Translations under genes and position numbers: made by a program
Origin: Cloeon dipterum
Lineage: Eukaryota > Arthropoda > Insecta > Ephemeroptera > Baetidae
Direction: 5' to 3'
Length of the DNA stretch: 64,000 bases
Assembly (NCBI RefSeq): GCF_949628265.1
Contig: NC_088789.1
Coordinates: 3,100,001-3,164,000, forward strand
Notes under the pieces: generated by a model
Seen by the model: the letters and a program-made list of their open reading frames with translations, nothing else
Database searches by the model: none
Told to the model about the DNA's origin: nothing
In this document: positions 1 through 48,426 of the stretch, piece after piece
Layout: the number at the start of each line of letters is the position of its first letter
How positions within the stretch are numbered: position 1 is the stretch's first letter

Positions 1-702
1 AAACACAAACACACACTCTCGACTTAAATGCTGCAGTATTAAAACAGCGGTCCGCGCTCGCAGAGACCACAATTTATTCGCCGCCGCGTAATAAAACAAT
101 AATTAGCGGCGCGCTGACCGCATATGAACTTGCGGGCGACTCGGGGATTATTATTGTCCACTGGCCGCCGACTTTGCCAACAGCAGTGAGCAAATAAAAG
201 CCGAACCAGCCGCCGCCGCTGCTGCTGCTGCTTCGTGCATTATTGCGTACGTGAGTTTTCAAAATCCGAAATGAAACACTGGCCCGCGCGCCAAATTAAT
301 AACTGCGGCTTACAATTTTTCGCTCGCGCACGTAAAAAGGTGCAGACGGTTTTTACTGCCCTGCGGCCCTTTTGTTTTATCAGTTTTCTGCTCGCCCGGC
401 CAAATAATTCATCTTTTGTGTTGCTGCGTTGTTTTGCACCGCCGCAGTTTATATAATACGCATTACAAGGGCGCTTAACTTTTTAGCTTGTTTAACAAAC
501 TGCGACGGTGAGTGTTTAATTCTCAGCCACACACGTGCAAACACACTCGTCAGGTTTCATTCACATTTCGGTGCAGCCTACTGAAAAATTTGCAAGGCAC
601 GCAACGATCTCTCGTCGCACTATCGGAACCGAGAGTTTATTGCTGGAGTTCCAACAGTGTACAACAGGATAAAAGGAATACAGGGGTTTCCTCAATTTTA
701 CT

Positions 703-772
703 TCAGTTTGGAGAGAGAAACACATGAATGCATTTTCTCAGTTTGGAGAGAGAAACACATGAATACATTTTC
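703..772. repeat. Two-copy tandem repeat, 35-bp unit
   Basis: Two adjacent copies of a 35-base unit that begins TCAGTTTGGAGAGAGAAACA. They differ by one base (ATGCATT against ATACATT). Near identity suggests a recent local duplication. No coding sense. Confidence 0.85.
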
Positions 773-3700
773 TCAAGCGGTTGAATTAGCATTTATTCGC
801 AGTGCCTCGCAATTTGGCAAGTTTTATTCAAAGTTATTCAATCGATCTTGGGAACTTTGGGCGAATCCATAATTAAGTCACACTGTGTGCGAAATTTGTA
901 TTTTGCTTAGAACTAGATGCAAATAAATATATTTAAGGCATAAATTTATCAGAAGAAGTTTCCTCGGTGTAGAGCGAGCTGTTTCTGTAAAGGTCCTGCT
1001 TATCCTCAGCTCCCAGACCGGACAGGAAGCAACTAGTAGCAAAAACTAGGGTAGCAGAACATTTTTTAGAAATATACGGAAAAAATAAACATATATAGGT
1101 TCACAAGGAGGAAGCTGCTGTAAATTTCTTTTGATAATTATGACAACCTCGAGTGCTCCTGCCTTCATTGGCATCGATCAAGAGCAAAAATTTATAACAG
1201 GATAATCGCTTCTTCTGCCTTTGAATATTTTTAGTCCAAATATTATTTTGATCCAAAAAAGGAAATTTTCCTAACCACCTAATTTGTGGCTTTAATAAAC
1301 TTAAATTTAATTTAATTTATCCTTATTTGCGTATTTGACATGTACATAAATAAGTATAACAAATACACCGAGTCACATACGTCCAATTGCTAAAAGCAAA
1401 ATCAAAACAAGAACCGTATTTAAAACAAGCAAATATTAAATATAAAAGGAATTAACAACAATTTGCCAGGAATAAGAAAGGTTTGATTAGAACGGTGTGA
1501 ATTTTATTATTCGTCGTAAAATAGAAAGACATATCAAGACTAAATAATAAGGTTGCATAATTCTTTTTGCGATTTGAGATTTTTCAAAAATTAATTTCAA
1601 AGATTTCCTATTAAATATAACTGTTTGACTACCGATCGGGGAAAACGATTTTTTTGCAAAACGAAATGTCAAAATACTTTGTAATTTACATTCGATAGTA
1701 GTACAAAATGGAACTATGTGGCGCCTAGCTGCAAAATTTAATTTATCAATCATATCCACGTGAGGCGAGAATGGGACGAGATGCAAAATGCTCTATTTTT
1801 CCGACATATTCAGTAAGAGCAGCGGCACAAAAAAATTGAAATGCAAACACGAGTATGGTGATTGATTCCGCAGCAGTGGCACGTGAGCAGAGATATTCCG
1901 CGACATCAAACACGGATTTTCGCACCAATAAATCTTCACATTTAAATTCCTGGTGCGCGCGCCAGATGTTGATGTAGAAATGATTTATCCGCGGCTGTTT
2001 GCTTCTCCTCTCTCTGTCTCTCGGTTGATACAAAACAATCTCGCCGCGCGGATGCATTATTCGCGACGGAACACACTGGAGCACGCCGCAAAATATTCTG
2101 CATTCGGTCGGATTTGCATCGGCACCGGTGGATTTATCCGACGGGATTTGCACGCTGCAGCTCCGCGAGACGACGCGGAGGACCAAACCCATCCATCCAT
2201 TCCCCCGGCCGCACCATTAATATTTCACGTCGTCCCTGACGCTCTTTCTTCCCCAAATCCGGCCCGTAAAATGCACGAGAGACGAGAGCGGCGCCGGAAA
2301 ATGATCGACAAACACACACTCTGAATAAGAGAGAGCTGTAATTTTCATTTTTGGAATGCTTCGTAATTGCGACGGCGGTATGTGCGAAATTTCCAATAAA
2401 ACAGAATTGGAAATTATCGCGCAAAGTTCTCGCACGGAATGTTTCGAATATTTTATTGATCTAATGTCCGCCTTATTATAAGTAATATTAGCATTCTTGT
2501 TGACAAACCACGTGCCTGCTGATGAAATTCCTGCTCGTCTGGTCAACACGGCCATTATTAATGCCGAGAGGTTGAGCAACGTGTTGTTCCAATACAGGAA
2601 GTTTCGCCTGGAAACGCTTCGAATATTTGTTTCTTCGGTGAATTCAGACCGTATAGGTGATATTCAAAGCAGTGTAATTACAATCTTTATGTAATGAAAG
2701 CTGAAGTATGGTATTCAATGATCTATATATGGAGGTGAAAGCATTTTCCGCTTTCCCTTCTGGGAAAAATTGATTTACTACTACTTACAATAGTACTTAA
2801 ATAGAATTCTGTGAAGAGCCCAGACTCAAAACCCGATCTGAAGAGCAAGTCAATCAGTATTTCGAGCCGCCGCGACAGACAGTTTAGATTTAGATGGCCT
2901 CGTTTTGCAGAACTAAACTCAAAATTTGCGAGCGAGCGCGTGTGTTACGACGCAGGCAAATAATTCAAGCGCGCAACGCTGGCAAATACGCGCAGCGAAA
3001 GGTCGGTCGCTTTTGTCGTCGCCCACGCCTCGCGAGACAATGGTGGCGGCAAAGACTTAAATCTGCACTCGGCAATGTGTCAATTGCTTTTGTAATTGAA
3101 TTTGCGCCCGCGAGTCAAAAGAGCGAGTTTTGCCGGCGCAAGTTAAATGAGGTGCGTGCTGTTTGCTTACTCGGCGGACAACTTTTCGGCTGCTGGCATG
3201 CGTGCTTGTTCTTTCAATTGCGAACTTGAATTCAGCCTCTCAGCAAAAGTCGAGCGAGCTGCACCCGCCCGCACGCCCGTGGCAGCATATTTTTTTATTA
3301 TTATTTTTGAAATCGCCGACGTGGAAAGCACCTTTGAAACCGGCCAACGGTCCGCGACCGCGCACGTTTTGTTTCGCATTTCTCACACTCGAATTGCCAC
3401 CAGCTGGAATTATTTGTCCCGTGTGATTTTATCATGGACGCAGAAGCTACAGCGTGTGAGATTCAGGGAATCCGGTTTTAATTCGTTTCAATTTCTGCGT
3501 CATACTCATAGAGTTATTCTCTATTCCTTCCCTAGAAAGAGCTTTGGCAATTAAAACTCCTAATTGCTCACTGCCTGAAGCTTTGCAGCACCTCTCAGCC
3601 ATAAAATCAAACGATTGCGGATTTGATCCTAGCATAGAGGTGATGAAATTCCAAGGCTGTGTAGACGTGCGCGATATTAAGCCGTTTTTGCTGAAATCCC

Positions 3701-4112
3701 CGCGCGCAATAATTAAAACAGCCGCCGAAAGTGTTAACAATTTATTCCGACCGCGCGCGCGCTCGCTCGCTGGGTTGCTCGAGTAAGAGGACTTAGACAA
3801 CTTTACTACCGCCACCGTAATCATTTTTGTTGGCTGCTATTGAACTTGCGAGCAGCCCTTTGGCAAGTTTAAATATCTCTTAAGCATACTGAGCGCGAGC
3901 GAGCAAGAAGCGAGCGAAAGTGCTGCGGGCTGCGGCACACAACTCGCACGCAGCGGCGGCAGCAGCAGCCAAGCAGCTCCGAGTTGGCAATAAAGTAGGC
4001 GCCGCAGCGGCAAACGCCGGTCGAATAACTTTTAATTTAATTAGCGCGATAAATATTGGTGGAAATCTTAATTAAAACGCAATGCCCGTTGCCGATTGTC
4101 TCTCGCACGCGT

Positions 4113-4142
4113 GAGAGAGAGAGAGAGTGTGTGTGTGTGTGT
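4113..4142. repeat. Compound (GA)n-(GT)n microsatellite
   Basis: A run of GA dinucleotides passes directly into a run of GT dinucleotides. On the opposite strand this reads as AC then TC repeats. Simple sequence in the non-coding 5' region of the nephrin-like gene. Confidence 0.8.
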
Positions 4143-7100
4143 GCACGCGGGGAATTCGGCGCTTATTAAAGCGGGCTTGTTGTTAATTAAATTAATTAGG
4201 CGGTCGGCAGCCGGCTCCGCAGTGCACCTGCAGCGTGCGATCGACGGTAGGCAACCTGCGTCGCCGGCGTGTCGGCCGGGCGAGCATACTCGTCCTCTCG
4301 CTGCGGTTTGACACTCTGGCGGGGCCGGCGAGCAAATTTGTTTGCGGTCGGCGCTGAAAGGAGCCGGCTCGCCCGCCGCCCGACTTTTTATTCCGACCTG
4401 ACAGCGGAAAGTGTCGCACGACGGAGGGATCCCCGCAATGGTGTGGGAATCGATGGGCGGGCGGAGAAAGACCCTCCATCCTGGAATGCTCGTGTGTTTC
4501 TGCCGCCACTCCGTTACGTCGGCAATGCAAGACGGATGAAATTGTTGAAGATTAAGTGTGCGCGGGCCTCTGGGGAATTTGAAATTCCCGCCACCCGGTA
4601 AATGACGCATTCGCCGAATTTATTTTTCCAGAGTGGAATTCCTGAAGAGGAGTTGATGAAGGGCTCAGATTTCCTACTAAAACAATTTCAATTAAAACGC
4701 CAAAAATATTTTGATATTTTTATTTCCAAACTTTGCTAATTTTTTACGTATGAATCCTTTGTTCAAAGCCTTGACGTTCCGCACACGAAACGTTTCGATT
4801 TTGTTTGCCAAAGAATATTAAAACAAATCCGTTGTAATTCAATATAATCTTCTTACGCGAGAACGATATTTAATCCAATTAATACTCGAGAGCGGGCTTA
4901 GCAATGGTGTGAAAACGCGTCCGGTCTGAAGTGACACGAAGCGTGCAAAAATTCAATAACTCCCTTTGAAGAGCATCTTGTTAACATTCACGGCCGCGCT
5001 CTCGCTTTTCCGAGGGCAAAGGGATTCAAATTAGCAAACAAGTGGGAATTTCGCCACGGAGAACGCATAAAACGAGAGCTAGTTGCCGGACCAACTACAA
5101 AGTTTGAAACTTTAATTAAGTTGCGTCTACAATTGGTTCTGCTCGCAAGTTTTTCGACGTGATAATAAAATCTGCAGAGAAGTAGCGAGCGCATCGCTCG
5201 CTGCTGGGTGGTCGCCACGGGTTTTTATCCAGCACAAAAGAATTCTTAATTCGGTCCCTTATCAGTGGACGGAGCGGCAAACTCCATAATATTGCGGTCG
5301 GGTTAAAATTCCAATGACAAAGCGGCGGAGCGAGCGAGCGAGCGCGGAAACGTTTTCGCGACAATTTCCCTTCTTGCCTGCGGCGGGCCAATCGATAAAT
5401 CGTGTTGGTCCTCCGCCGGAGTTGTGCTTGTCGAGGAATTCGCTGCGAATTCATCGACGCGACCACTTAATAAAGCGAAGTTTGATTTCGCGCAAGAAAC
5501 CAACCTTGGTTGGGTCGAGTGCAAAGTTGCCGTCGCTCGACTCGGGGGTCAACTCCGCCGACCGAACTCAACCGCCGCCGTCGCCTCGTGTATATTGCTT
5601 TTCAATTTATTAAATTGTAAATTGCTGCGCATAACATCCACTGACGATGAGGCTTGGTAACTCGCCCGCCGCCGGCCTTCTTTGTCCCCCTCCGCGGAAA
5701 TGATAGACTTGTCAAAGAAAAATATAATATAGGCCGTGCCGCATTAGAAACTAGAGAGCCGCCGGGTTCGTCGCTTTTAATGGGCTTCCAGCGGGCAGAT
5801 GCTCTAGCTTTTATTTTTATCCTCGGCTCAAATGTCTCAAAGCTATTGTCGACTTTCCATAAATGTACTTTTCTGCCTTTAGGACGCCTTTTTACTGAAA
5901 AATCTAGTAGTTTGGTACGAGTTAGTAGGAACGCCTGGTAACTGTCCTTTTCCGAGGATAATTAATCTGCGCAGTTTCTTGGTACATCTATCACAAGTTT
6001 GTCAGCACGCAACTTGAACCCAGTTCTCGTTTCGCCTCACCGACTCGGCAGTCAGTGATATTTATATATTTGATGCACGTTTTCACATACACAAACGTAG
6101 TGATGCTTAAACTGTTATTGCTTAACGAGACAAATCGAACGTGTTTTTACCCCGTTCTCGATTGCAGCAGAGATCTATTTCCAGCAGGCGAAACGATCCG
6201 CAAACAGTTTATTACGCCGTGGCTGACTTTTACCGAGAAAAAGCCGAGTAAACGAGCTCTTATCGGAATTAACTCTTTCCTAATGAGCGCGATCTCTGGA
6301 AAACTGCGAGCAAAGCAGCTTTGCCGAGCCAAGTTGGCCTGTTTTTGCTGTTGTGCTCGAGCGTAAACAATCGAGCGCGACATTTTCCGACAATATGCCG
6401 CTCGCCAATGCCCAGGAGACCGGCGAACGACGGAAATAAGTGGCTCTCGCTTGGCGTTTTAAAAGCTTGCGGCCTGTCTTCTCGCATGTCGCGGATGTAT
6501 TTCGCGGATGAAAAATGGCACAGATTTTATCATCGTGACTCACCGATTTGCTGCCGGCGAAGCGAAGTCGAAGGAAGAGAGAATAATAAAAAAATCGACG
6601 ACCACTTTGATTACGCATGAACGCAAAACTTGCTTTGTGGAAAACGTCCAACTAACTCGAAACGTTTGCAGGAAAATATGACTTGCAAACAAAATGTCGT
6701 GTTAGCTCTTCTTTTATTTTTCAATGCCAGTATGCTTCTAGTTTCTCTTTGCAACGTTTGAAATTTTTTATATTCTTTGCTTCTTTTCCGTCGTTACTTC
6801 ATCCAACTTAAAAAATCACGGAATCAATTTTGAGAAATGGTTTTCAGGAAAAAATACCACTTTTGAGCCTCGACCACCATTCTGTGAAAATCTCCATTGT
6901 GGTCGGCTTCGTATTCGTCGAAGCCACTATTGTCACTACCATTTTGGACAAAATTGCTTTTATCGACTGCAGTCGCGCGCATACCTTTCCCTCGTTTGCA
7001 ATGACAATATTTTAATTGCCCCGTCCGGCTGATTGGCACAAATGAACCAAACGCTTCGTTTTGCAGCGGTTAGCGGCGGCCTAATCAAGTCCACCTGTGT

Positions 7101-10100
7101 GCAGCACACCGGCGCATAATCAGCTAACGCGGCCATTTTTATTTTGCGGACGCGCTGGCCTCGATTCAGCTCAATCTGATTATTCACCGGCGCTGCTCCT
7201 GCTTTTGTGCTTGCCGAGCGTGTGTTGTTCTGTACACACTCACACACACGCTCGCTGCCGCTATTTATTAATCAGCGCAGTGCTAGCTCGCCGGCGATCA
7301 ACAGCTTATTTGATCAAACAACTGAGCCGCAGCGTAGGCAATCCGCCTGTCACGAGCAGCCTAAAAGTTGCCTAATCACCAGCGCCCTTTGAGTTTTGCT
7401 CCAGATTGATTAATCGTCTGCCTTAATTAGCTGCGAAGTTCCATCGAAAAAATTTCGGTAAAGGCGGGCAAGCCACTCGAAGCAATTTAAAAGCAAAAGC
7501 TAAAGTTTGTGGGTAAAACGCGAAGCCGGGCTGTTCTGCATTTTTCACTAAATAATGAGTGGAACAAAACGCAGAGACTACTGCTGACTGGCAAGCTTTT
7601 GCAATCAGCTTTCTTTCTTTCTCGACTCGCTCCGCAAAGAAGCCGTCTAGTGCTTTGAAAAGTTCCGAACAGAGGTAATCCCTGGAGCTTGTTGTTGCTA
7701 ATCGATCGTGTCGTGATTATCTCAAAGTTCACTTCATCGCGGGCGGCTCTCGCTGCAAACCGACCGAAATTGCAGCGTAAAAAATCTGAAACAAACTTGG
7801 GCATCAGCAGAGCGAAGTAATAATACCGCCCTCGAGCGGCGTTGTGCGCTGCTGCGGTGGTGGTATAGCAGCAGCCAAACTTTCAAGTACCAATTTAACG
7901 GTTCAAACTTATCAGGCCTCGGGCTTCATTACTAGTTTGATTGCGCCGAGGCTGTAAATCAGCGGCAGTCGGACCAAAATGGCGCTCCGTCCGGCTCAAT
8001 CGGTCAACAAACACCACTTTCGGCACTTACGCGAAATGAGACGAAGCCGACGCATCTCCGACTAATGGAGAATTCGCCTCATCAGCGCAAATGATGATAC
8101 AAGATACAATGGCGATGCATGCAAAATATCGCCTGAAATTACATTTATGGGGCAGAACCAAACTAATTATTTGACATTGAGTTTTGCTCCACATTACACA
8201 CTCGGATATACATTCAATTTAAAGCCGCCAATTTGTGCTTGTTGATATACAAACGTAGTATATGTGAACCAACTGGCACCCCTACGTGAATTGGCTGTGT
8301 CAAAATCGGCTGAAAAGGAATAAATGCTGGCCAGTCAGCCACAATGACCTGATATTCCTCATGAAAACGTCTAGACGGTGACGCAATCGCAAGAGTAACG
8401 ACCCACTGAACAATAGCAACTGAGCACAGGCTGATTTCTTTTCTTACTCGCGCGCACACACCTCGGATTACACGCAATTTTCTTTCAACATTGCTCCAAC
8501 AATGGAATTACTTTCCCGCCCGCCTCGAAATTTTTATCTCACCTAATCTCGTAAAAAGTTAATTTCCTTTCATGGTAATTTTTTCTCACTGTCGATGATG
8601 GTATTCTCCACCAACCGAATTTTACATTGTCTCTGAGCTCTTAAAATTTTAATCTTGATATTTACTCAACAAAATGTATTCGTGTGCCCAAGATGCACTT
8701 TGCTTTGAACACTTCCCATCTGATAAGATCCAGGGCTGCTTTCCAATACCCAGTCGTCCCGGCCGAGAACCCGGCGTAAATAAGCAAAACACCTGCAGTG
8801 GTGGCCGAGAATATTCTCCGCAGCGGCATTAATCACGACGAATCACGCCGGGCAATTCGGTTTTGTCGGTTTTCTTTCGCAGGCCGCACGTTGCTGCATT
8901 GAGGCGTTTGCGGCCGAAATAAACTAGCTCCCCGCGGAGCAGCGAGAGATAGCATGCTTTATATACATACTCTCTCACACTGTGTGTGTGTGTATAATAT
9001 GCAGGCGTTTTTGCCCTCTCGCTCGGAAAAGCATCCCGCAACAAACAACCCGCGAGTGTAAACCCGTCCGCCCGCTCCTCGTAATAATTCCGTTCCTCAG
9101 CAGTCAGCTCCAAGTGCGAGGAAACTCTTCATCGCGCCAGCCAGGAGGAAATTGCCTTCCCAAATTCAATATTTTGCTGCTCTGCGGAGTGTTTTGTAGG
9201 AGCGCGGCGGGGAAGTGAAAAATGAGCCTGATCGGCTGCAACGCCGTGGAGAAAGAAAAGGGAAATTGCCCCTGGTGAGCTCAAGAAAAACCTTGACTGA
9301 CAGGAAAATTTGTATATATCAGCTATGTAATCATTGTATTTCATTTTTGTTTTTAATCAAGATTTTAAATTAAATGATTTTCAAGCCAAAAACAATTTGA
9401 ATCCTATTGTTAAAAATATTCTTCTTGCTTCAAAGCGGTAATGTAGAAAATTCGTGAAATTCTTGCTATTGATAACTGAAACTAAATAACCTAAAAACTG
9501 AAATATGATATTTGTATATTATATAAAAACAAAGATCGAAAATTTCGTGCGTGGAAGAAATGAATATTTTTACAGTTGTACCCAAAAATATGTTGCCGTT
9601 AAACGTTTTCGAGCTTGATGATATCTTTGCGTGTAGAATTGTAGATTAGGCGATGTATTCGATAATATAATTAGATAAAAACTCTCATTACTCAGTTCTT
9701 AATTCTGACATTCCACGCCATCAGTCGATCCGTGCAGCACTGTCCTTCGAGCAAGCCTCACTTGCTCCAAAGTGGCCGGATTTTTTCTATATAAATTGCA
9801 CCTCTTTCACTCACTCAGGCCCGTTCGTTCGTGTGCATCTCATTCTGGCCGAGATTTGATTTGGCGCCCAAATTGCGGGCTCCGTTGGCGTCCTCTTTGC
9901 CGATTGTCTCCCCCGCTTTCACTCGGCTCCATTCCGCCGCAGCTCTTCTCTCATCTACCTGCCCATGAATCATATATGAGCGCGGATATTGCTGGAAAAG
10001 TGCGAAGGCAGGTGTATTTACACGCGAGATTGGAATTCGCCGCCCGCACCAAAAACACACAGCGGTGAAAAAACGTGCTTTTCGTGAGCTGCTCCACGTT

Positions 10101-12945
10101 TTCGGGGCTTAAAAGTTGCGCATCAAATCCAGCGGCTGCCGAGAGAAATTGATTTTCCACATAGAACAACCTATTTTCGGTCTAAAAGGCACGAAATATT
10201 TCCCTCTAAATCAACCCTTTAACAGATTAGTGTTTTCCTTGGATTTTACTGATTGTTGCACACGTAAATAATCCGTCAGCTCAGAATTTACACTGTCGGT
10301 GACAAAGCTGACTCGAATGCATCACACCCAGTTACGATTCTGCGGAGCGCACATGCGGGAACGAGCAAGCAGCACATTTCACGCAAACTTCGTCGCACCT
10401 ATTCCCGGTAGCGTATCTTTTAGTGTGCAATCTTCACGCGGGTGTCTCTTCCGTGTGATATAAAATCGACGGGCTGGCTGGCTGCGTGGGCGAAATGAAA
10501 AAGTACGGTGAGCCGTTTGTTTCTCACGTTCCTCCCGAAGCAAGCAAGCAGGGTCGTGTTTTAAGAAAATCGCCAACGTCTCTGCAGCCAGCGCCGCGCC
10601 GACAAAGTTTCGCGATAAAAGTTTCAAGTGGCAATCAAATTTTCATATTGCTTCCATGCGGAGAGTCGTTTTATTTGTCACCTGGCTGGCGTGCGCGGCG
10701 CTGAATATTTCAGCCGCTTGATTTATGCCGGCTTAATATTCACTCCCCGCGCCGCGTGAATTATGCAGCCGGCGCGGATGCTCTTTCGCTTTTCTCCCCC
10801 GTCCCGTTTAAGCGTCTCGCATGTGCAATAATTTTTATTTATTAACACCCGCGTGCGGTGCACTTGGCAAAAAGAGAAAAATCGCGCACTCCGCCCGTTT
10901 CATCAATGCATTAAAACGCGATTGCGAAATCTGCGTGCGTCTGTCTGTCTCTGCGCCCGTCCGCTCACGTTGCCGCTTCATTTGCAAAACCGGCCGTCTC
11001 GCATGAATTTATTCATCAAATGCAGGTTATTTCCGATTTCAGCAGCCCCATCTGCATTGCAAATTCGCCGCGCAGCCATTTGAATAAAGGCCTGTTTATT
11101 AATTTTTTACCTGCGCGCGCCACCGGAGGGTGTGATGGGGTTTAATAGAGTGCTTAGCTGTATTTACTGAGCACTGTTTTGGATCCGCAAGTCGTGCCAT
11201 TGTAATTGTTTCGTTAAAACTAGAATAATTACTCTTTTGATGAGAACATTTACACAACCGAACGCATGGTTTTTTTTCAATTTATTGAATCATTTGAATT
11301 CGAGTAGAATATTTCATTCGAGATATTTTCCATACAATGTTTTCAAAAGCTGTCGGTATACCTATTCATCACCGGCGTATTTTTTTATCCCATCGACTTC
11401 CTGCTAATTAACTCTTTAAATAAACAGCGACCTACTTTCAAATTCCAGTTATTTAAACGTTCTGTTGCGCTGCATGCGCATGCATTTCTCGATTAATGAA
11501 ATGCAAACGCGTGTATGGCTCGAGTGCATTAGCAATAATAAATATAAGCCCTCGCCAAGTGAGTTTGCAGATTAATTAATCAAGGCTGTGATCGCGTACA
11601 TAAAACGGCAAAAAGTAAGGCTCCGGCGCAGCGTCGCCATTTTGGATCTCACTGCGAATATAAATGCAAATGCTGAGCTAATAATGGAATAAAACTTGGT
11701 CGACGGTGAGCATTTGCAAAGAACTACTGCTCGGCTCGCTGGAACTGAAACAGAATGTATAACCGTAAAACCTGATGCGCCTGAATCGATGATAATGCGT
11801 TGCGAGCCGAAGTCGCATTTGACCGCGCCGAGTTATTTTTTTGGCGGCTCGTGTGTGCAGATTGCGTTGCCGGCGGGCAGATGCGGCGCGCTACGAATGT
11901 TACGCACGCATTTCTTCTCTCGTCTAATTTTCTATTCTGCGTGCCAGACAAAAGCAGGGATGGGAGAAAGAGGCAGCGGCAGCAACTTCCTTCCACCGCT
12001 GCGGCTGAACGCCGACCTTCCGCTAGAGTAGCTTGAGTCCACCGCACAGAATTAATGTGGCGGTATTTAAAACGAAAATATTTGGCTTATGTACTCCAGC
12101 CGTCAAATTTGCATTTTAATTAGAAAAGACCTTTAATTTCACTCCTATGCAGAGCGCCTGCAGAGTTATCAAGTATGCAACCCGCGCAGCATCTCGTGCG
12201 TTTCCGCGCGGGATGGTTGCATTTTTACGAAACAAAATTCTCGCATCCTTTGTCTAGTTTTTCACAAAGCACATCGCAATTTCCCACTTTCCACACTTGA
12301 CGGAACAGCAAAGTGAGGCGCGTTGCAAAAGTTAGCCACTCTAACACCGGACGCGCGGCAGCGTCGAATTTCTTGTTCTGCCTCGCAACTTTTTTATCTT
12401 TTTATTCGGCTGTGCGCGGGGTGGCTGTAATTTTTTATTGCGCTTATAAATTCGACCCTTTATTGTTGCTGTTTCTTGTTGTTGCTGCTGCGTTATCGAG
12501 CCTTTCCTTAATGGTGGAACGTGGATTATTTCCAATAGCGTTGGGCGGCAGCAGTTAATTCATAGCCCCTTAACTGGCACGCCGCTTTATTGGGAACTGC
12601 TCTCGCTGCCGGCCAGACGTGATTTCCTTTTAATTGACTTTCCCACCAGCTGCCGCTGTTCCACCGGCTCGCCACACTTCGTTCTCTTTCTCTCTCCTAC
12701 CCCAAAAAAACGTGTTTTAGTTGATTCAAATTGACTGATTCCAAAAAAAACCTGTCGACATTTTGAAACCTATAATTATTCGTCATAAAAACATTTTTAA
12801 GCAAACCGCAAAATACAAACTCAGCATAATTCTCGGAAGTATTTAACAACCTTTGAGTTTCACCCAAAATTCAACATATTATTATTAATTGCTTCCCTTT
12901 GAACGTGCGGTCAGTTAATTATTCCATCCGCCTTGTTTGTTTCAG

Positions 12946-15900
12946 CTCCGCCAACTGGTTTGGAAATTGTGGGCCACCCGAGCAACTCGAAGATTGAAGT
13001 CAACGAAAACCAGGCTCTGACGCTCGAGTGCGTGGCGTACAAAGCGAAACCGCCGCCGACCATCGTGTGGTATCGCGGCGACACGAAGCTGCCAGGTTTG
13101 TCAGCTCGAATTCCGTGCCGCGCGGGTCGTTTAATTGTGCTTTTTGTTTCACTGCAGAGAGAGACCTGAAAGTTTCTGTCACTGAAGTGCCGGATGGCGG
13201 TCACGTGAAGCGATTCGACGTCAAAAGTCGCATCACCGTCAATGTGAGTGTATTATTTTGAAGGGAGCATGTTATTGGCACAGTCCGAGCCTCGCAAATA
13301 AAAAGAAAGGAGTGTTAAACATAACGTGCCTGTTGCAGCCGACGAAGAGCGACGATTACTCTGAATACAAGTGCGAGGCGCAGCATGAGGCGCTCGCCAG
13401 GGAGTACCCGCTGAACACCAAGGTGCAGCTGTCAGTTCTGTGTAAGTGCGAATTAGCCTGCGACCATCCCCTGTTGAGCGGCTCTAATTTCACGCTCCGT
13501 GTTTGCAGACCCCCCAGGTGAACCCCACATCGACGGCTACTCGGAGGGCGAAACCATCCGCAGAGGCCAGCATGTGGAACTGACGTGCCGCTCGCGTGGC
13601 GGCAATCCGCCGGCCCAGCTCGTGTGGTACAGGAACGACGTGCAGGTGAATATGATGTACCACTCCAAGGGCCGCTACTCGGAGAACATCTACAAGTTTG
13701 TGGCCAAGGCTTCGGACAACGGCGCTCGCTTCCGGTGCGAGGCGAGCAACGTCAGGAGCGTCAAACCACTCAAGGCGGAGGTCCAACTCACCGTCTACTG
13801 TGAGTAGCGATTCTTTCAAAATGAGCTTATCCGTAAATTATTTCCCAAACTCTTTCCGAAAAGTTTCCTTATTACCGCGAAGCGGCAGAACGAATGGCCT
13901 TTTAGGCTGGTCGATAATCAATTTTGTCAATTAGCCCGGAGGAGGATGAGTTGCATCCTCCTCAATTCCGTAGAGTGGTTTTAAAAATATCCTCCTCTTT
14001 GCACGCGCCACGAAACCAATTACCACTTGACTAATGCACCGCCTGGTTTCAAATTGCAGTCGCCCCCGCCCAAGTGACAACCTCTGGACCGACCGAGGGC
14101 AAAGTAGGCGACACCCTGCAAATCACTTGCACCACGGCCAACTCGAACCCGCCCGCCGAAATTAAGTGGGTGGTGAACGGAAAGAAGCGGCCAAACACGA
14201 CCAACAATAGGACCGAGTCGCCGGAAGGAGGGTGGGTCACGTCCAGCAACCTCAACATCACGATCCCTGCTGGAGGGCAAAAGTCGCTCACCGTTTTGTG
14301 CCACGGAAGCAACCAGCACCTCTCTGAAAACCTCGTTTCCACGCACAGCATCAACATATTGTGTAGGTTTTTCGTTGAAATTGCAACGCTTTGAATTAAA
14401 AATATTTAATACAGATCCACCTGGCGAGCCGTTCATCACTGGCTATGTTTCTGATTCGAGTGTGGCCGCAGGAACCACCCAGAAAATGGCATGCATCTCC
14501 TCTGGAGGCCACCCTTTGGCTACCCTGTCGTGGTACAAGAACGACAAAAAGGTTTCTTCACTTGCACTGCTTGTTATATATGTCTTACCTAACCTTGCTT
14601 TTGTTTTGTAGATACCTAGCATTACCAAAGAAATGGACAAATCAGTGACAGCTGAGATTACTTTCGTTGTGAACCAAACTGACAATGAAGCTCGGTACAG
14701 ATGTGAAGCTACCAATTCTGCGACGGAGGTGCCCTTGATTGATACAAGAATCATGCACGTCTACTGTAAGTAGCATAAAATATTTTACTCTCGATTTTGA
14801 AGTATTAATTTAAACGCAATCACCAGACAAACCAGAGCATGTGGTGATTCGTCAGGATCCGCCGAAGCTGAAACCTGGCCAGAAAGCGAACCTGACTTGC
14901 GATAGCAGTGCGAGCAACCCTCCTGCCACCCTTTCTTGGTGGAGAGCTGGCATTCCAGTGAGCGCCGAACCTGGTGCAATCACCTTTTCCAACGGACCTG
15001 GGCTCTACGGTGGCAAAACCTCTTCGAGCACCCTCTCCTTGAATGTTGAGGCTGACGTCGATGGACTCACATACATCTGTCAAGCCCACAACGCAGAACT
15101 TGGCGAAAGCGTGAACCAAGCATTGACCCTGAATATTGTTTGTAAGTATATGATTTTGATTTGAATTTAGATATTTTACCTGTGCTCAATTCCGCAGACA
15201 AACCAGTGTTTGACGGAGAACCTAGCTCTGGAATGCGCCAGGTGACTGTCATTGAAGGAGAACAGGGCCACATTTCCTTCAGCGCAAGAGGAAACCCGCC
15301 AGAACTGACCTTCATGTGGTCATTGGACAACAAACCGTACAAGCCATCAGCACGAGCCCTCGTGGAAGGTGCCTCCCTCAACCTAAGCACCGTGCGACGG
15401 GAAGATGCTGGCGTCTACAGTCTGCATGCCACCAATTCTGAAGGCTCCTCCTCCAGCAAAGTGCAACTGGTGGTCAAATACTCTCCGAAAATCACGCCAG
15501 GCCTCAGTGTGGTGATGGTTGAGGAGAGCGAGAATGCCACTTTGACGTGCAAAGCTGACGCCGTGCCGCTAAGCCAGGAGCACTTCAGCTGGAAAAGAGG
15601 CGGCGCGAATGTGAAAGAGCGAGCCTCTGTCACCTTCGCCAACGGCTCGTCCGTGCTGAAAATCCACGCGGCCACCAAAAAGGACATGGGGCAGTACGAG
15701 TGCATAGTCAACAACGGCATTGGCGCCGTGGCCAAGGCGAATGTGACCCTGCTGATCAAGCACAAGCCTGAGTTCATAGTCACGCCAGACATTGCAAAAT
15801 CTGCCGCTAAGGACGGAAAAGAAGCGCGGCTGGTGTGCAGGGCGAAGGGAGCGCCGCAGATCAACTTCCAGTGGTCTAAGAATAAGAAGCAAATCAACGC

Positions 15901-18719
15901 CAACACCTCTGAGAGATACATCACGGCCGTCAACAAGGTAACTATTTTACTTTTCATAATCAAATAATTTTTTCTCAAATCTTAACAGTAAAAACTGCCA
16001 AAGTTATTGCTATGCACTTGGATTTTCATAAATGTTTTTATTGCTCTTCCAGCTGGATGAACTGACTTATGAGAGCACCCTAGTCATCAAGTCTGTGAAG
16101 TATAATGACTTTGGACCTTATGAATGCACCGCTAGAAACATCATGGGATTTGAAAATCACAACATCAAGCTTGAAGTCACGTCAAAGCCCGATCCTCCAG
16201 TGTCCATGTCAGTGGTGAACATCACTCATAACAGTATTACCATCGCCTGGGTGCCTGGCTTCAATGGAGGCTTGCCGCAATCCTATATCATTCAGTACAG
16301 GAGAATCGGCACCGAGTCGTAAGTTTTCTTTATCCTTGTGTGGAGGCGCGTGTGCAATGAATCCTGTCAATTCCAGCAAAAACCAGGTCAACGTGATCCC
16401 CTTGAACAGCACAAGCCAGGAAATCACAGGCCTGATGCTCGGCACCGAGTATGAGATTTTGATGTGGTCCAAAAACGAGCTGGGTGAGAGCCAGCCAGTG
16501 AGAAATGCTGTCAGAAGTACTACACTGAGTGAGTGTTTGCCTTGAAAGCTTCTCGATTTTATTTCTTATACTAATATCTTAAGAATTAGGACCTGGGGTA
16601 TACCCATGTAAAAAGAATTATTTTAGTTTTAAAAAGTTGCTTTTGGCTTCTGCTTTGATTTCTTTTCCTTTTTGCTAACTAACATTTGGCCCCCTTTGCA
16701 CTCCCATTACACACAAATAACTCGCCAAACTCACACACACACACACACACAATCGCCCCATAAACTGCAAACCCCCATCCCTTCAAGTAGATTATTTTTC
16801 CTGTGTGTACAAAAATTTGAATCCTGGTGACGGCTCCTGTAAATTGACGCTTGCCTCTTTCTCTCTGTCTGTCCTGTCTGCGTAGACACGGCGCCCCCCA
16901 CCTTGGCGCCGCCCCCTTCGTCGGCGCCAGGGCACGGAGCGCCGTCGCCCTCCTCCCCCTCGTCGCCGCCGCCCGCCCTGGTTGCCGGGGTGGCCTTGTG
17001 TGCTGTACTCTTGGTGCTTCCCCTGGTGGTGGGTCTTTGCTACTGCGTGTCCCGGCGCAGGAGAAAGAACAACAGATTGCTCACAGGTGAGTCTTTTCTC
17101 TCGTGTTCCCAGGGGAGAGTCCGAGCGCCGAGCACGAGCGCCGCCTGCAGGAGGTGCTCAGGGAGCAGGGCGCCTTGCCGCGCCTCGTCATCACAGCCGT
17201 CGCCTCCACGGCGGCCGTGCTCGTGTTTGTCAACATCCTGGTGGTGCTCTGCGTGCTCAGGCACCGCCAGAGCAAGAAGCAGCGCAAACCGTCAGGTGGA
17301 ATGATTATTTTGCTCTCGGCCTGGTGGTGGACAAGCAATTCGCATTTTTTTTTTTTTATCAAAATGGGAATATTCAGTCAGTGCTGGTCCTCAGATTTAT
17401 TCAGTTTTCGGGTTTAAAATGTTTGGGGGAAACCACACTGACTTGGTCCTGTTAATCTTTTGCTAATATTTATTTAACCTCAACAGGTGCAAGTGAACAA
17501 GGGAGCAACAAAAGTGGCAACATTGAAATGTATGCACCAAGTAGCTTCAATGAGACTGTGACTGGAGAGACTTTGAGCTCTATTTCTGAGAAAAGTGAGA
17601 CTTACTCCAACGGAGAAGCTGTTGAGGAATTCATTGTAAGTGACACATTTAGAAATTGGTTACTGTCAAACATTTCTTAATTTCAATAGAAAATATTTGT
17701 GCAACTCAAACCAAGCTTGCTGAAAACTAGAATCTACATTTTTAAGTGTAAATTTTGAAATCCGCATTCAGTTCATTTAATTAAAAAAAAACGTTTATTG
17801 CTTTATGTTCCCTGTTTATTTAATTTTTATTATACTCATTTTATATAATATATTGGCATGTGCTTGAGTAATCTCAAGACACCCGTCCTTCCCCTTGAAA
17901 GTCTCAGCCATAAATCAGTGCATGTCAATGTGTCCCCAACTCACGAGTAGACCCCCCGAGTCACGAACCCCGCATGAAATAGCGTTGGTGTTGTGTGTGT
18001 CAGGAACAAGGCTCGAAGCGTGCAGCCAGCACTTACCTGATTGACCAGGTGGAGCCGCCGGCGCAGTATGCAGGCTACATGCACCCCGGCAGCCGCCAGA
18101 GCACCCTCACCAGGCAGCACAAGCCAGTCGTGCCCAACCAGGAGCTCGACCAGGAGGCTGTCTACGTCGACTCTCTCCGCAGAAACGCTTACAACCACTC
18201 TATTGGTAAGAACGCCCACGTTTCGTATTTTTTTTTAATTTTATTAAAAAGTTTATCAGAATTAAATTTCATGTTATGAATCGCTATTTTGTGGGAACTA
18301 AAAAGCCGTTTAAAAATAATATCTATGAATTGAAGTTTCCACTTGTGATAAGCTAATTAAATAAAAAAATCCCAATTTTATTTTAAATTTTAACTCTATT
18401 ATCATGTCTAGGGGAACACAAGGGCTACCACCCTGCTCCGCCCCCGGAGCTGGACCCGTCTGCGTACTACCCTCAGGAGCGTTACTACCCTCCGCCCCCG
18501 GGGCCATTCAGCCGGCCGGCGCTGGGCAACGGCTTGACCCACCGCCACGTGGTGCCGCCGCCTGACGTGACCATGCTGGTGCACACGGCCAACGGACCCG
18601 TGGTGCCCAGGATGCCCCCCAAAGTGCCCTCGACGCCGACGTCGCACCTCACCACTTTCGCCCAGCCGCACCCAGCGGCCGAAGGACGCAGCCTCGAGAC
18701 TGAAGGCCACCTTGTCTAG
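12946..18719 (+). CDS. hbs/sns: Nephrin/Sns/Hibris-like Ig-superfamily adhesion receptor (5' end outside window)
   Basis: Type I membrane receptor for cell recognition. In insects this family (Sns, Hibris; vertebrate nephrin) binds Kirre/Roughest partners in myoblast fusion, nephrocyte slit diaphragms and cell sorting. Exons: 12946-13095, 13158-13243, 13339-13441, 13509-13799, 14060-14362, 14415-14551, 14612-14765, 14827-15141, 15198-15937, 16053-16319, 16378-16528, 16886-17086 or 17113-17295, 17487-17635, 18004-18205, 18412-18719. They encode about eight C2-type Ig domains (repeated TCxxxxNPPAxxxW signatures), one FN3 domain (PDPPVSMSVVNITHNSITIAW onward), one membrane span and a cytoplasmic tail. 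Domain-border introns are phase 1, as usual for Ig genes. The tail has several tyrosines (ETYSNGE, YAGYM, AYYPQERYYPPPP) and polyproline stretches suited to SH2/SH3 adaptors, and it ends in EGHLV. An N-terminal Ig domain and signal peptide are expected upstream. The choice between Sns and Hibris is not settled. Confidence 0.9.
16732..16751. repeat. (CA)n microsatellite
   Basis: Run of about ten CA units in the 357-base intron just before the alternative transmembrane exons. CA repeats in introns can act as hnRNP L-type splicing elements, so the position may matter for exon choice. That role is inference. Confidence 0.75.
16886..17086 (+). other. Alternative exon A: Pro/Ser-rich stalk plus transmembrane segment
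   Basis: 201 bases, phase 1 at both ends. It encodes an extracellular stalk rich in Pro, Ser and Ala, then a hydrophobic span (LVAGVALCAVLLVLPLVVGL) and a basic stop-transfer segment (RRRRKNN). Acceptor TGCGTAG at 16885; donor GTGAGT at 17087. Part of the nephrin-like gene. Confidence 0.8.
17113..17295 (+). other. Alternative exon B: second version of the stalk and transmembrane segment
   Basis: 183 bases, phase 1 at both ends. It encodes a charged stalk (EHERRLQEVLREQGALPR), a hydrophobic span (LVITAVASTAAVLVFVNILV) and a basic stop-transfer run (RHRQSKKQRK). The acceptor lies only 26 bases after the donor of exon A, so the two exons cannot both be spliced into one transcript. The LPR-then-hydrophobic layout looks more like the usual Sns/nephrin membrane exon. 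Confidence 0.8.
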
Positions 18720-31399: not shown

Positions 31400-32410
31400 A
31401 GTGCGTCAAAAGGATGTCACGCGAGCTAGAGTTGACGTGGAAGTGAGGGTTGCACGCCTTTTTTCCGCAATTTGTTTTTCCAAATTTGATAACAGAACGA
31501 GGAAAGACATAAATTAGTGACCAAGTGTCAAATGACGCCATAACTACGGCTAATTAAGTGAAATTTCCCCGAGTTTTTCAAGACCGCGTCAGGTTTTATT
31601 ACTTTCCTGTTGATAATAAGGTTAATTTAATATTCTCGTAAATTTTCTGAGTCGTGACAAATAAATTTTTGCATTCTTGCACGTGCATTAAAAATTTACC
31701 CAATAAAACAACCATTTTTTTATAAATTTGGCAATTTTAAGTAGAATTATAAACTGTGTTCGATATTTAAATAGGTCTCCTTTTTATCATTTTAAACAAC
31801 AATAGTTACTGTGCTTTGTGCTCGAACAATGATATGCTTCAGAGGGAAATGCTCACTTCTTTCTGAAAGAATTGTGAGCAATTGAAGTTATTCGGTCCAT
31901 ATCACTCGATAGAAATTGCGCTTTTTGCTTGCCGCACTTGCTGACTTTTGTGAAAAGACATCAATTTACTTTCCTGCGCTCGTGAAATTGGATTGCGGTT
32001 AGCAGCATATTTTGTAGCTTTTGTGATGGGATCTGCTCGTATTATTCTTCCAACATATCGGTGCTCTGAATCGCATTTGATCGGAAATAAGGATGTGAAA
32101 TCATCTCAATTAGCACGTAATAAGTGTCACGCCAAGATATGGTTGCGAATGAAAAGGTTTGAAGGTGCGGACAACAAAAAGACGCGAGTGCGCGGTTGCG
32201 GGTGTGATAAATCGTTTTTATTTTTACACGCGGCCAAGCAAAACGGCAGACCTACTAAAGAAGCCTCTTTAGAGGTGGAACGTGGGAGACGCGAGACAAA
32301 CAGAAAAAGAGAGAGAAAGAAAGAGCAGGAGTCGCACTCGCGGTGCTTTTGAATGAGTGAGATTGTCAGCCGCCGGGGTCCAGGCGCCTCTCCGCGTCCC
32401 CCCTTTCACC
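31400..32410. other. Intergenic spacer, nothing recognised
   Basis: This is the divergent spacer between the protease start and the promoter of the secreted low-complexity gene. An open frame at 31,993-32,352 (+) has no known domain and runs into a GA-rich upstream sequence, so it is not called. Confidence 0.5.
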
Positions 32411-32416
32411 TCAGAT

Positions 32417-32423
32417 TATAAAT
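32417..32423 (+). promoter_or_regulatory. TATA box of the secreted low-complexity gene
   Basis: TATAAAT followed by GC-rich sequence. A start of transcription about 30 bases downstream (near 32,447) would leave a short 5' UTR before the ATG at 32,520. A GA-rich stretch (32,305-32,330) lies just upstream. Confidence 0.6.
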
Positions 32424-32519
32424 ACAAGCGCGGCAGCGCACCCGCGAGACACACATTCAGGTTTTCGGGAAGAGCAAGTGTGCGCTGGGCAATGTGCAGT
32501 AGCAACAACTACTGGTGAA

Positions 32520-35404
32520 ATGGCCTTTTCAGGCAGGACTTGTTCCTGCTTACTGCTACTGCTGCTGCTGCTCGTGTTGGTCGACGGGTCCAGCGTGCCG
32601 CTCAAGTTTGTCACTTCGCCCACGAAGTCGCCGGTCACATACCTGGAGGACCGGCCGATCGGGGATAAAGAAGTCGAGTCATTCCTCGGGGGTGGAAGCA
32701 CCCTCGGCAGTTGGAAGCGCTGGGACAGGGGGCAGCCGAAGCCCCAGCCGCCCGCCAAGCCTGCAGGGGTGGCCACCAACGAGAAGACTTTCACGCAGCA
32801 GCAAATTTTAGAGAAGTTGTTCACCGAGTACCACAACCACTTGCAGAAGCAAAAGCTAGCAAATTCGACCAATGCCGTAGATCAGCAAGCGGTCGACCAG
32901 GGAAGGTATGTGTCCAGCATCAACATACGACCGAAGCCCACGCCAACCCAGTCTGGACACTGGATGTTGGACACGGAGGAGAGCACAAAGGTGCTCAACC
33001 CTTCTGCTGCCATGGCGAACCTGAAGCTGCACCGTCCCCATCAGTCCGCCGCCGCCGCCGCCGCGGCCTCCTCCTCCTCGCCAGCCGTTCGTCCTCCGAA
33101 GGACGGCTGGGTCACCCTGGAGCCAGTGCCCTGGTCGTCTAGCAAGATATCAAAGTGGACGCCAAACAAAGCCACTGCCTCCTCACCCGCTGCCGTCTGG
33201 AACGCGCAACAACAAAAGCCCAGCGCCAGCAGCAGCAGCGGCGGCAGCAGCTGGACGTCCAACCGTCCGGGCTCTTCTTCGTCCCAGCAAGCTTCGAGTT
33301 GGGACCTGAAGCCCAGTTTTTCTGACAACCGTCCCCTGACCTGGGACGACGTTCCGAGCAAGCCCAGCTGGTCGGACAATAACAGCCAACGTCCCAGCTG
33401 GGAGCACACTAAACCGTCCTGGACGGACACAAAGCCTTCCTGGGGCTCGGATTCGCTCAAGCCTTCTTTCTCGTCGTCCAACAAACCCAGCGTCAGCTCT
33501 GCCTCTTGGACCGACCTCAGCAACAAGCCGTCCTTCACCAGTGGTGCCAGCCGTCCGACCACCTTCACTAACACTCACGAGAATCGTCCGACAACCTTCA
33601 CAAATAGTGAGAGCATCCGTCCGACCACCTTCACCACGACCCTTGGAGCTGGGACCAGGCCGAAGCCGGACACGAGCAACCTGCTTGGCATCATCACGGA
33701 CGGCAAACCACCAGAGTGGCCGGTCGACTCGCCGGCAACGCCAAGCTTTACGCGACCGTCAGGTAAGGAAAAAAGTCCCAAAAAAAGTATTTCGTTACGC
33801 TTTCTCCGTGCTGAAAAGAGCAAAACAAAAAAGACGAAAAAACGAGCGACTTTGTTTAAGCACGCGTGAAATAATTAATTTTCTCCAAGTTCACTGCCGA
33901 CTCCCATTGTCTCCGCGGGAAGCGTGAGCACGCGGCAGCGACACGAAAGAGTGCGTAAAAAAGTACTCATGATCGTGACATACATCGCGGTTAATGGGAA
34001 ATAAAACGCGCGCGCTCCTGTGCAGATAGATCGTGAGTGCATGCGAAAATAGAAATTTCGTTTTGTGCCAGAATTAGGCAAATGAAACTAATGCGCTCGT
34101 TTTCCTCTCTAAAGCGCGCCTCTTACTTTTGTGACAGTCATCTTAAATGGAGCAGCAAGCCAAATAAGAGCAGAGCATTTCCAATTTATTGTATGTATTA
34201 AAATAGTAAAAAAGAATTATAAGAAGTTACAAACCGCGCTTCACAAACTGAGAAAATAAATATGTGAATCTGTTATATCATTGTATTTTTTATTTAAAAA
34301 GCAATGGTGTTAATCATATTTGGCTTATTTTATAGACGTTCTTTCTAAAGTTGTAAATTAGTGATATTTCTTCATGCTAAAAGCCCACTTTGCTGGCATT
34401 AAAATCTCCGTTTTTGCCCACGCATAATTTTTTATCTATTATCTCTTGCTAATGTGTTCACATTTTTTGATCCGCGATTATACTTGTGGATCAACTAATT
34501 ACAATAAAATTTTTCAGTAGTTCAACGGCCAACCTGGAACCGCCCGCAGGCTCAGGCCCATACCAGCTTTTCGCCCGGCTTCTACAAAGGCGACGAGGAG
34601 AAAAACAACAAACCACAAGTGCAAGGTGCGGCCGATGGCGGACAGTGGGTGCTGCTGTCCAGCACACGTGGACACACCATCCCGACCGCCAGTCGCCAGG
34701 GCTCACGACGAGCATTGAAAGTCGACGCACCCATAGTCGCGTACTCGAAAAACAAAGGAATCAGGCTGACGGTTCTGCCGTCGGCCGAGAACCAAGGAAC
34801 CTCGCACGGTGGCCTCCTCGAGGTGGACCAAACCTTTCAGACGGTGGACGCGGCTGCCGCCCAACTGAACCAGCAGCAGACAACAACCCTCAGGCCCATA
34901 ATTCAATCGGACCCTGTGACTGTGGAGGTTAAGCCGCAAAACAATGGCCACGGAGGCGGCAATAACAATAAGCGCAAGGGAGGCAACAAGCGCAAGGGCC
35001 ACAAGAATAAAAATAACAAGAGAAAGGGCAAAAAGAAGCGGAGGAGGCGGCCAGGGCAAGCGGCCCAGCAGCAGCAGCAACAGCCGCCGGCTGATGGAAG
35101 CGGCACAGGAGTCGGTGGCGGCGGCGGAGGTGGAGGCGGAGGGGGTGGTGGAGGCGGAGGCGGCGGGGTGCAGGTTTACACCGCCCGCAACCCCAACGAG
35201 TACGTGAACCAGCGCAAGGCCCTGATCGCGGCCATCGGTGCCGGCATGCTGCCGGCCACCATGGCCGCCCTCGTGCCAATGTTCCTCGGCCGGAGGCGGC
35301 GGAGGCGAGACCTAATGGGTGACCTTGATGGCACCTACCTGAAGACGCAGCAGCAGTGGCCATTCGTGCATTCACGCTCCACTTTCAGCCAGAGATTCGG
35401 ATGA
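32520..35404 (+). CDS. Secreted low-complexity protein with PSW repeats, basic cluster and polyglycine
   Basis: Two coding exons, 32520-33762 and 34518-35404 (phase 1), giving 709 aa. Not recognised as a named family. The ATG at 32,520 was chosen because it starts a clean signal peptide (CSCLLLLLLLLVLVDGSSV); an upstream frame extension begins with a non-ATG codon. Order of parts: a conserved-looking N-terminal ~130 residues (SPVTYLEDRPIGDKEVESF); a Ser/Ala/Trp-rich middle with repeated PSW and PTTFT motifs; the second exon with a WVLLSSTRGH segment; a strongly basic run rich in Lys/Asn/Arg; polyglutamine; about 20 glycines; and a C-terminal segment (NPNEYVNQRKALIAAIGAGM) with a hydrophobic stretch, then RRRRRR-D, a possible furin site. 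An extracellular-matrix or cuticle-linked role is a guess. Poly(A) signal AATAAA at 35,640. Confidence 0.8.
35100..35168 (+). repeat. Polyglycine-coding GGN tract
   Basis: Imperfect GGC/GGA/GGT/GGG trinucleotides coding for about 20 glycines in the secreted low-complexity protein. Mixed codons suggest that the peptide, not only the DNA repeat, is maintained. Confidence 0.85.
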
Positions 35405-48351: not shown

Positions 48352-48355
48352 AGAT

Positions 48356-48426
48356 AGCAGAGCGTGGTTTCGATCCACGGACCTCTGGGTTATGGGCCCA
48401 GCACGCTTCCACTGCGCCACTCTGCT
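48356..48426 (-). tRNA. tRNA-iMet: Initiator tRNA-Met (CAU)
   Basis: Minus-strand 71-base tRNA beginning AGCAGAGTGGCGCAGTGGAA. Anticodon CAU lies at 48,394-48,392 within GGGCCCATAACCC. The three G-C pairs at the base of the anticodon stem and the A1 start opposite the acceptor end are marks of eukaryotic initiator tRNA. The T arm (GGATCGAAACC) carries the A-rich T loop typical of initiators, in place of elongator TTCGA. No intron. The internal A and B boxes act as promoter. No CCA is encoded. Confidence 0.95.

Follow-up and report, generated by a model that had tools for sequence, protein, structure and literature searches.

Two putative mutually exclusive membrane-anchor exons, 26 bases apart, in a nephrin/Sns-like receptor gene of Cloeon dipterum

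Why does a receptor gene of the mayfly Cloeon dipterum carry two complete membrane anchors in neighbouring exons, and can both of them enter the same protein? The gene lies on the forward strand of a 64-kb stretch of contig NC_088789.1 (RefSeq assembly GCF_949628265.1, positions 3,100,001 to 3,164,000), called here the window, from the first letter of which all positions are counted. The part of the gene considered is its 3' part, an exon chain from 12946 to 18719 with a reading frame open to the stop at 18719. We propose that two of its exons, A and B, encode alternative membrane anchors of a nephrin/Sns-like receptor, each used to the exclusion of the other, and that the packing of splice signals prevents their joint use; judged from the sequence, we give this reading a probability of about 0.74.

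Two membrane-anchor exons and the gap between them

Exons A and B are located between a fibronectin type III (FN3) domain and the cytoplasmic tail, and each of them amounts to a complete membrane anchor. The elements concerned are the following.

16791..16885, + strand: AG-free stretch before the acceptor of exon A (previous AG at 16789-16790), with a candidate branch point at A16847
16886..17086, + strand: exon A, 201 nt, phase 1-1, with a Pro/Ser-rich stalk, a transmembrane span and an RRRRK stop-transfer segment
17083, + strand: predicted branch-point adenosine for the acceptor of exon B, in TGCTCAC, inside exon A, 29 nt before that acceptor and 4 nt before the donor of exon A
17087..17112, + strand: 26-base gap, holding the intronic part of the strong donor of exon A, a pyrimidine tract and the acceptor of exon B
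17113..17295, + strand: exon B, 183 nt, phase 1-1, with a charged stalk, a transmembrane span and a basic stop-transfer segment
17293..17301, + strand: weak donor of exon B, CAG/GTGGAA

The lengths, phases and coordinates of both exons, the donor of exon A (CAG/GTGAGT at 17087), the acceptor of exon B (CAG ending at 17112) and the 26-base gap are exactly those claimed by a first-pass annotation of this DNA. The stalk of exon A contains 12 proline, 7 serine and 2 threonine residues in 30, and its span is followed by SRRRRK; that of exon B contains 5 arginine and 5 glutamate residues in 24, and RHRQSKKQRK follows the span. The Kyte-Doolittle maximum over 19 residues is 2.93 for A and 2.68 for B, and the first 14 residues past the span include 5 and 6 lysine or arginine residues, respectively. 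Whether A, B, neither exon or the two joined together are included, the frame runs open to the stop at 18719. The open frames, the hydropathy maxima and the basic residues thus bear out the claim of two complete in-frame anchors and, being adjacent, of equal phases and interchangeable in frame, the exons have the layout of a mutually exclusive pair. The annotation had also called stalk A Pro/Ser-rich and stalk B charged and helical. The residue counts agree with the composition of both stalks, but the helix is absent from a structure model of exon B alone, a single-sequence model of low confidence (mean pLDDT 66.9) with no helix of at least 4 residues and short strands in the span, which we left out of the argument.

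If the 26-base gap is retained, the frame shifts and a stop is reached after 1059 codons, compared with 1254 in the full joined reading; this premature stop falls in the next exon, with two junctions remaining downstream. Such outcomes bear on another explanation, in which a single switch would also skip both exons (giving a secreted protein) or retain the gap (leading to decay), so that its main output would be a membrane-bound versus a soluble receptor. Skipping both exons indeed leaves the frame open to the normal stop, gap retention gives the early stop just described, and a transmembrane-less nephrin variant is known in humans and rodents (PMC3144718). Two complete anchors would nevertheless be left unexplained by it, and soluble or decaying products would be compatible with mutual exclusion as an extra output. 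We hold this explanation to be the least probable of those considered.

The gap is half as long as the shortest other intron that we measured. Twenty-one other introns of the window, 13 from the nephrin-like gene (one of them after exon B), 7 from an MCM5-like and 1 from an MO25-like gene, range from 52 to 368 nt, and 13 of the 21 lie between 52 and 67 nt; the names MCM5-like and MO25-like come from reading the translations, and further introns of the MO25-like gene and those of other genes stand outside this sample. Set against the minimum of 52 nt in these introns, the earlier statement that the gap is below spliceable size holds. Moreover, adenosine occurs only twice in the gap, at position +4 of donor A and in the AG of acceptor B, and neither is usable as a branch point.

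Upstream of acceptor B there is a single good branch-point candidate, A17083, which scores 4.9 compared with 1.8 for the next best; at the gene's 15 acceptors, that of B among them, the scores run from 1.0 to 6.0. As a control, the same rules found an equally good candidate at only 5 of 189 AGs inside other exons. Two AGs are located 2-3 and 7-8 nt downstream of A17083 (at 17085 and 17090). Both fall within the distance from a branch point, up to about 12-15 nt, at which an AG can be passed over (PMC1431707). Considering that the gap has no usable adenosine and that the only good candidate lies inside exon A, mutual exclusion appears better founded than first claimed, and the layout, by the size of the gap and its lack of a branch point, is one expected to prevent the joint inclusion of A and B. 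The annotation had predicted that joint inclusion would give two spans: this is correct in terms of frame, since the joined isoform is open and would carry both, but splicing of this kind looks mechanically blocked.

We suggest the following switch. The common ectodomain would be joined either to A or to B, both of which would rejoin the common tail in frame. U1 bound at donor A and SF1/U2 bound at the branch point of B would cover the same few bases. When donor A is used, the FN3 exon would be spliced to acceptor A and donor A to 17487, giving the A isoform; when the branch point of B is used, the FN3 exon would be joined to B and exon A removed as intron, giving the B isoform. If A17083 is the real branch point, the 26-nt intron would hold no branch point at all, and the joining of A to B would for this reason be blocked. 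In its strict form the proposal is that CTCACAG/GTGAGT is a composite site, in which donor A overlaps the branch point of B and the branch-point adenosine belongs to the coding part of exon A, U1 leading to A and SF1/U2 to B, so that A-to-B joining would be topologically impossible and not only crowded; we see the odds on this strict form as even. A tissue factor acting on the pyrimidine tract of A, or aiding the weak donor B, could set the ratio of the isoforms. At the protein level, stalk A, possibly O-glycosylated and extended, and the charged stalk B could differ in shedding or in membrane placement; the differences in stalk stiffness, cleavage or membrane partition that the annotation had suggested are likewise conjectural.

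Splice signals, coding bias and the rival explanations

Gene-specific splice matrices were built from 13 donors and 13 acceptors; they are small, and the one for acceptors favours the T-rich tracts of constitutive introns. With them, donor A falls at the 98.9th percentile of GT sites in the window. By direct count, acceptor A is preceded by the most pyrimidine-rich 40 nt among the 15 acceptors compared (0.78), and acceptor B by the most pyrimidine-rich 20 nt (0.85). The GC content is 69.7% in exon A, against 39.5% in the preceding intron. For exon B, GC at codon positions 1, 2 and 3 is 0.705, 0.417 and 0.917, and the synonymous-codon score is 0.438 in frame, compared with 0.025 and −0.222 in the other forward frames; exon B is thus convincing as a coding exon. 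The argument for exon A lies in its protein features, the strong in-phase donor, the pyrimidine tract with the AG-free stretch, and the GC content.

We then scanned both strands of the window for AG...GT segments, 120-300 nt in length, symmetric and open in phase 1, with a 19-residue Kyte-Doolittle window of at least 2.0 followed by a net charge of +4 or more. Exactly two distinct spans were found in the 64 kb, those of A and B. In 20 dinucleotide shuffles of the full 64 kb, counted on both strands, the mean was 0.5 spans. When only the local 958 nt (+ strand) were shuffled, 4 of 1000 shuffles had at least one span and none had two; with the 410-nt A-B block alone, the corresponding figures were 2 and 0 of 1000. 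The thresholds were chosen after A and B had been seen, and the figures describe rarity and are not a clean test.

Several observations weigh against reading both exons as working rivals. In exon A, the codon score is 0.030 in frame compared with 0.027 and −0.109 in the other forward frames, and does not decide the frame; a reverse frame containing one stop exceeds all three, at 0.326. A reverse frame of exon B also reaches 0.327. The acceptors of A and B stand at the 70.7th and 85.0th percentiles of all AGs by the gene-specific matrix, the training sites of which stand at 94-100. Donor B is weak, at the 32.6th percentile of all GTs in the window by the same matrix as donor A. For branch points, and for splice sites in the generic case, the scoring used matrices approximated from general knowledge. 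A branch-point candidate as good as that of B is found at 297 of 3618 AGs when the whole window, introns included, is counted (8.2%), and 2 of the 15 acceptors of the gene have no good candidate (scores of 1.0 and 1.4). There is no significant similarity between A and B, unlike in exon pairs born by duplication. Finally, no relative was found in prokaryote-genome, viral or plasmid collections with queries made of the exon B anchor plus part of the tail, and of the exon at 17487-17635, exon A being left out of the queries.

The coding statistics bear on the explanation that only exon B works, exon A being a chance or decayed open segment in a GC-rich intron that is rarely or never spliced in. 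It agrees with the coding bias of exon B and its lack in exon A, and with the low-complexity, Pro/Ser-rich sequence and modest acceptor score of A; the exon B anchor is moreover what we take to be the more usual type among nephrin anchors. It is opposed by the strong, in-phase donor of exon A and the richest 40-nt pyrimidine tract of the 15, by a span of 2.93 with RRRRK in the one frame that fits, by the step in GC content from the preceding intron, and by the rarity of such a span in shuffled sequence. We regard exclusive use of B as unlikely.

The weakness of donor B leads to the opposite explanation, in which only exon A is used and exon B is an older transmembrane exon that has lost its good donor and is being abandoned. 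A generic matrix gives 0.5 bits for donor B compared with 8.2 for donor A; among the three phase-compatible GT sites in 17200-17420, donor B is the best. Exon B, however, retains its frame, its phase, a pyrimidine-rich acceptor and its coding bias, and regulated exons usually have weak donors; exclusive use of A seems to us very improbable. The exon pair is probably real as a pair of rival anchors, a prediction well supported by the sequence.

Additionally, we considered the origin of the pair and the means by which one exon might be selected. An origin of A and B as tandem duplicates is not supported: the BLOSUM62 local score is 41, a value matched by 183 of 2000 segment-wise shuffles in a test that has little power on hydrophobic exons of 60 residues, and there is no long DNA match. 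We do not invoke RNA structure as the selector, since the 461-nt fold has a z of −1.47 (6 of 100 shuffles fold as well) and no arrangement clearly chooses one exon; three inverted repeats were found, one inside exon A and two inside exon B. No AATAAA or ATTAAA, and no GCATG, occurs in 16529-17486, where we looked for a poly(A) signal or a short-tail alternative end. A short motif count named no regulatory factor. A run of CA repeats lies at 16732-16751 in the intron before exon A, a motif that we take to be a possible site of an hnRNP L type regulator.

The receptor gene and its neighbourhood

The remaining coding exons of the chain, from the splice model and Pfam matches, are listed below; the first nine, numbered here within this chain, hold the upstream Ig domains and are read as Ig2 onwards.

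12946-13095, + strand: upstream Ig-domain exon 1
13158-13243, + strand: upstream Ig-domain exon 2
13339-13441, + strand: upstream Ig-domain exon 3
13509-13799, + strand: upstream Ig-domain exon 4
14060-14362, + strand: upstream Ig-domain exon 5
14415-14551, + strand: upstream Ig-domain exon 6
14612-14765, + strand: upstream Ig-domain exon 7
14827-15141, + strand: upstream Ig-domain exon 8
15198-15937, + strand: upstream Ig-domain exon 9
16053..16318, + strand: end of the last Ig domain and start of FN3 (splice model, Pfam fn3 and Ig matches)
16377..16528, + strand: end of FN3, leaving in phase 1 through the donor TGA/GTGAGT
17487..17635, + strand: common exon 3' of A and B, start of the cytoplasmic tail
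18004..18205, + strand: cytoplasmic tail exon
18412..18719, + strand: last coding exon, ending in ...ETEGHLV, with the stop at 18717-18719

In the joined translation, Pfam recognizes Ig_3 in 8 stretches and one fn3 directly before the anchor. A search of known structures placed SYG-2 (4ofy) second of 226 matched sequences, over residues 7-277 in one stretch with an E value of 5.2e-39; the first rank was taken by a long multi-domain Ig/FN3 chain of titin (8q6t, E 2.3e-42), over a different, more C-terminal stretch. Sns and Hbs have nine Ig domains and one FN3 (PMC9000958), and nephrin has 8 Ig domains and one FN3 (PMC3144718). The receptor thus has the layout of the nephrin/Sns/Hibris/SYG-2 family, with eight to nine Ig domains and then a single FN3. 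The family named by the annotation is borne out by the Pfam layout and by the SYG-2 match, and we read the gene as an arthropod relative of the nephrin/Sns/SYG-2 receptors. Its C-terminal GHLV is presumably also that of vertebrate nephrin. A few simple motif searches upstream (1-12945) did not find the first Ig domain and the signal peptide, which may lie in diverged exons or beyond the window.

The searches for relatives returned pattern matches to 180 and 163 stretches in two prokaryote-genome scans and to 8 and 21 in two viral-contig scans, none of which was confirmed by tblastn. The single plasmid match (E 0.8, 29.7% identity) was not taken as a relative. Such an outcome in prokaryote, viral and plasmid collections is as expected for an animal gene.

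Elsewhere in the window, the MCM5-like gene on the − strand contains a 52-nt GC-AG intron at 51194-51245 (GCATGT...TTCTAG), and its reading frame is continuous once this intron and six others are removed. Open segments of Pro/Gly-rich repeats of the PPGMTFPPG type occupy 59674-61692 (+ strand) and probably encode low-complexity secreted or structural proteins. At 32361-35404 (+ strand), long open segments rich in Ser, Trp, Pro and Lys, followed by Gln and Gly runs, have an apparent signal peptide and look like the gene of a large low-complexity secreted protein. A single tRNA-Met gene is located at 48355-48426 (− strand).

Comparison with known switches of membrane anchors

Muscle fusion, filtration by nephrocytes and the wiring of synapses all draw on receptors of the nephrin/Sns type, a family with binding partners of the Kirre/Neph type. 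If both isoforms are produced here, they would share ectodomain and tail and differ in the anchor, so that the role of anchor and stalk could be tested in isolation. The predicted switch, if true, would have two states, with unrelated anchors on a mucin-like or a charged stalk of a nephrin-type receptor, and the site shared by donor and branch point would offer a small natural system in which to see how mutually exclusive splicing is enforced.

Exons 17.1 and 17.2 of insect Dscam1 are likewise two mutually exclusive exons that give the transmembrane segment of an Ig/FN3 neuronal receptor (PMC1397879, PMC3364881). Their choice is reported to be regulated by steric hindrance and RNA structure (Yue et al. 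2013, as cited in PMC7969005), and the alternatives TM1 and TM2 are sent to different places, dendrites or axons (PMC9880076). Dscam1, however, belongs to another gene family, and its pair occurs in the fly, the mosquito and the honeybee (PMC1397879), whereas exons A and B are not detectably homologous and no clear RNA-structure selector is seen here. In N-cadherin (CadN) of arthropods, the exclusive exons ME-18a and ME-18b hold part of the single transmembrane domain (PMC2655722). The Drosophila ME-18 exons are paralogues of 36% identity from an old duplication (PMC2655722), in contrast to the very different stalks of A and B, and we do not place the present pair in the tandem-duplicated class of the Dscam 17 and CadN 18 type. 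CadN 18a and 18b show no targeting difference in fly neurons (PMC2655722). Since the transmembrane segments of Dscam differ in targeting and those of CadN do not, a targeting difference between the A and B isoforms is not to be assumed.

As for the mechanism, steric exclusion of the tropomyosin/actinin type, also seen in exons 4a/4b of OGDH, is similar in that the two exons cannot be joined when the branch point lies too close to the 5' splice site before it (PMC7969005). The OGDH branch points are intronic, 25-41 nt after the donor and under a proposed threshold of about 50 nt (PMC7969005), whereas here the best candidate precedes the 5' splice site and falls within exon A. Short gaps are also found in the Dscam1 exon 6 cluster of Coleoptera, where more than 45% of the introns between variable exons are below 50 bp (PMC8042237) and where the authors expect selector sequences within exons, given introns of less than 50 bp (PMC8042237); those exons, unlike A and B, encode extracellular Ig sequence in a large array and include no anchor pair. 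Among human clusters, 57 of 629 were flagged for such splice interference, and two transmembrane-helix exons could hardly be cassette exons, as the membrane side would switch (PMC5740500).

Splicing at the anchor of the same family is represented by the transmembrane-less variant of mammalian nephrin (NPHS1), which is a loss of the anchor and not a choice between two (PMC3144718). For the stalk, the comparison is CADM1, in which shedding depends on O-glycans and on a juxtamembrane exon of 33 bp (PMC5385562). The first-pass annotation knew of no such arrangement in Sns or Hibris. This agrees with the titles and abstracts of the literature matches listed, among which no transmembrane exon switching in nephrin, Sns or Hibris was found, a weak indication of absence, as the subscription literature lies mostly outside their coverage. 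In two papers on mutually exclusive exons, the main text of PMC3303723 contains no mention of hibris, sticks and stones, sns or hbs, and that of PMC3228551 none of sns or hbs. The type of switch itself is not new, being known from Dscam exon 17 and N-cadherin exon 18. Transmembrane exon switching is thus known in kind, and the new detail, if confirmed, would be that the branch point of the second exon lies inside the first.

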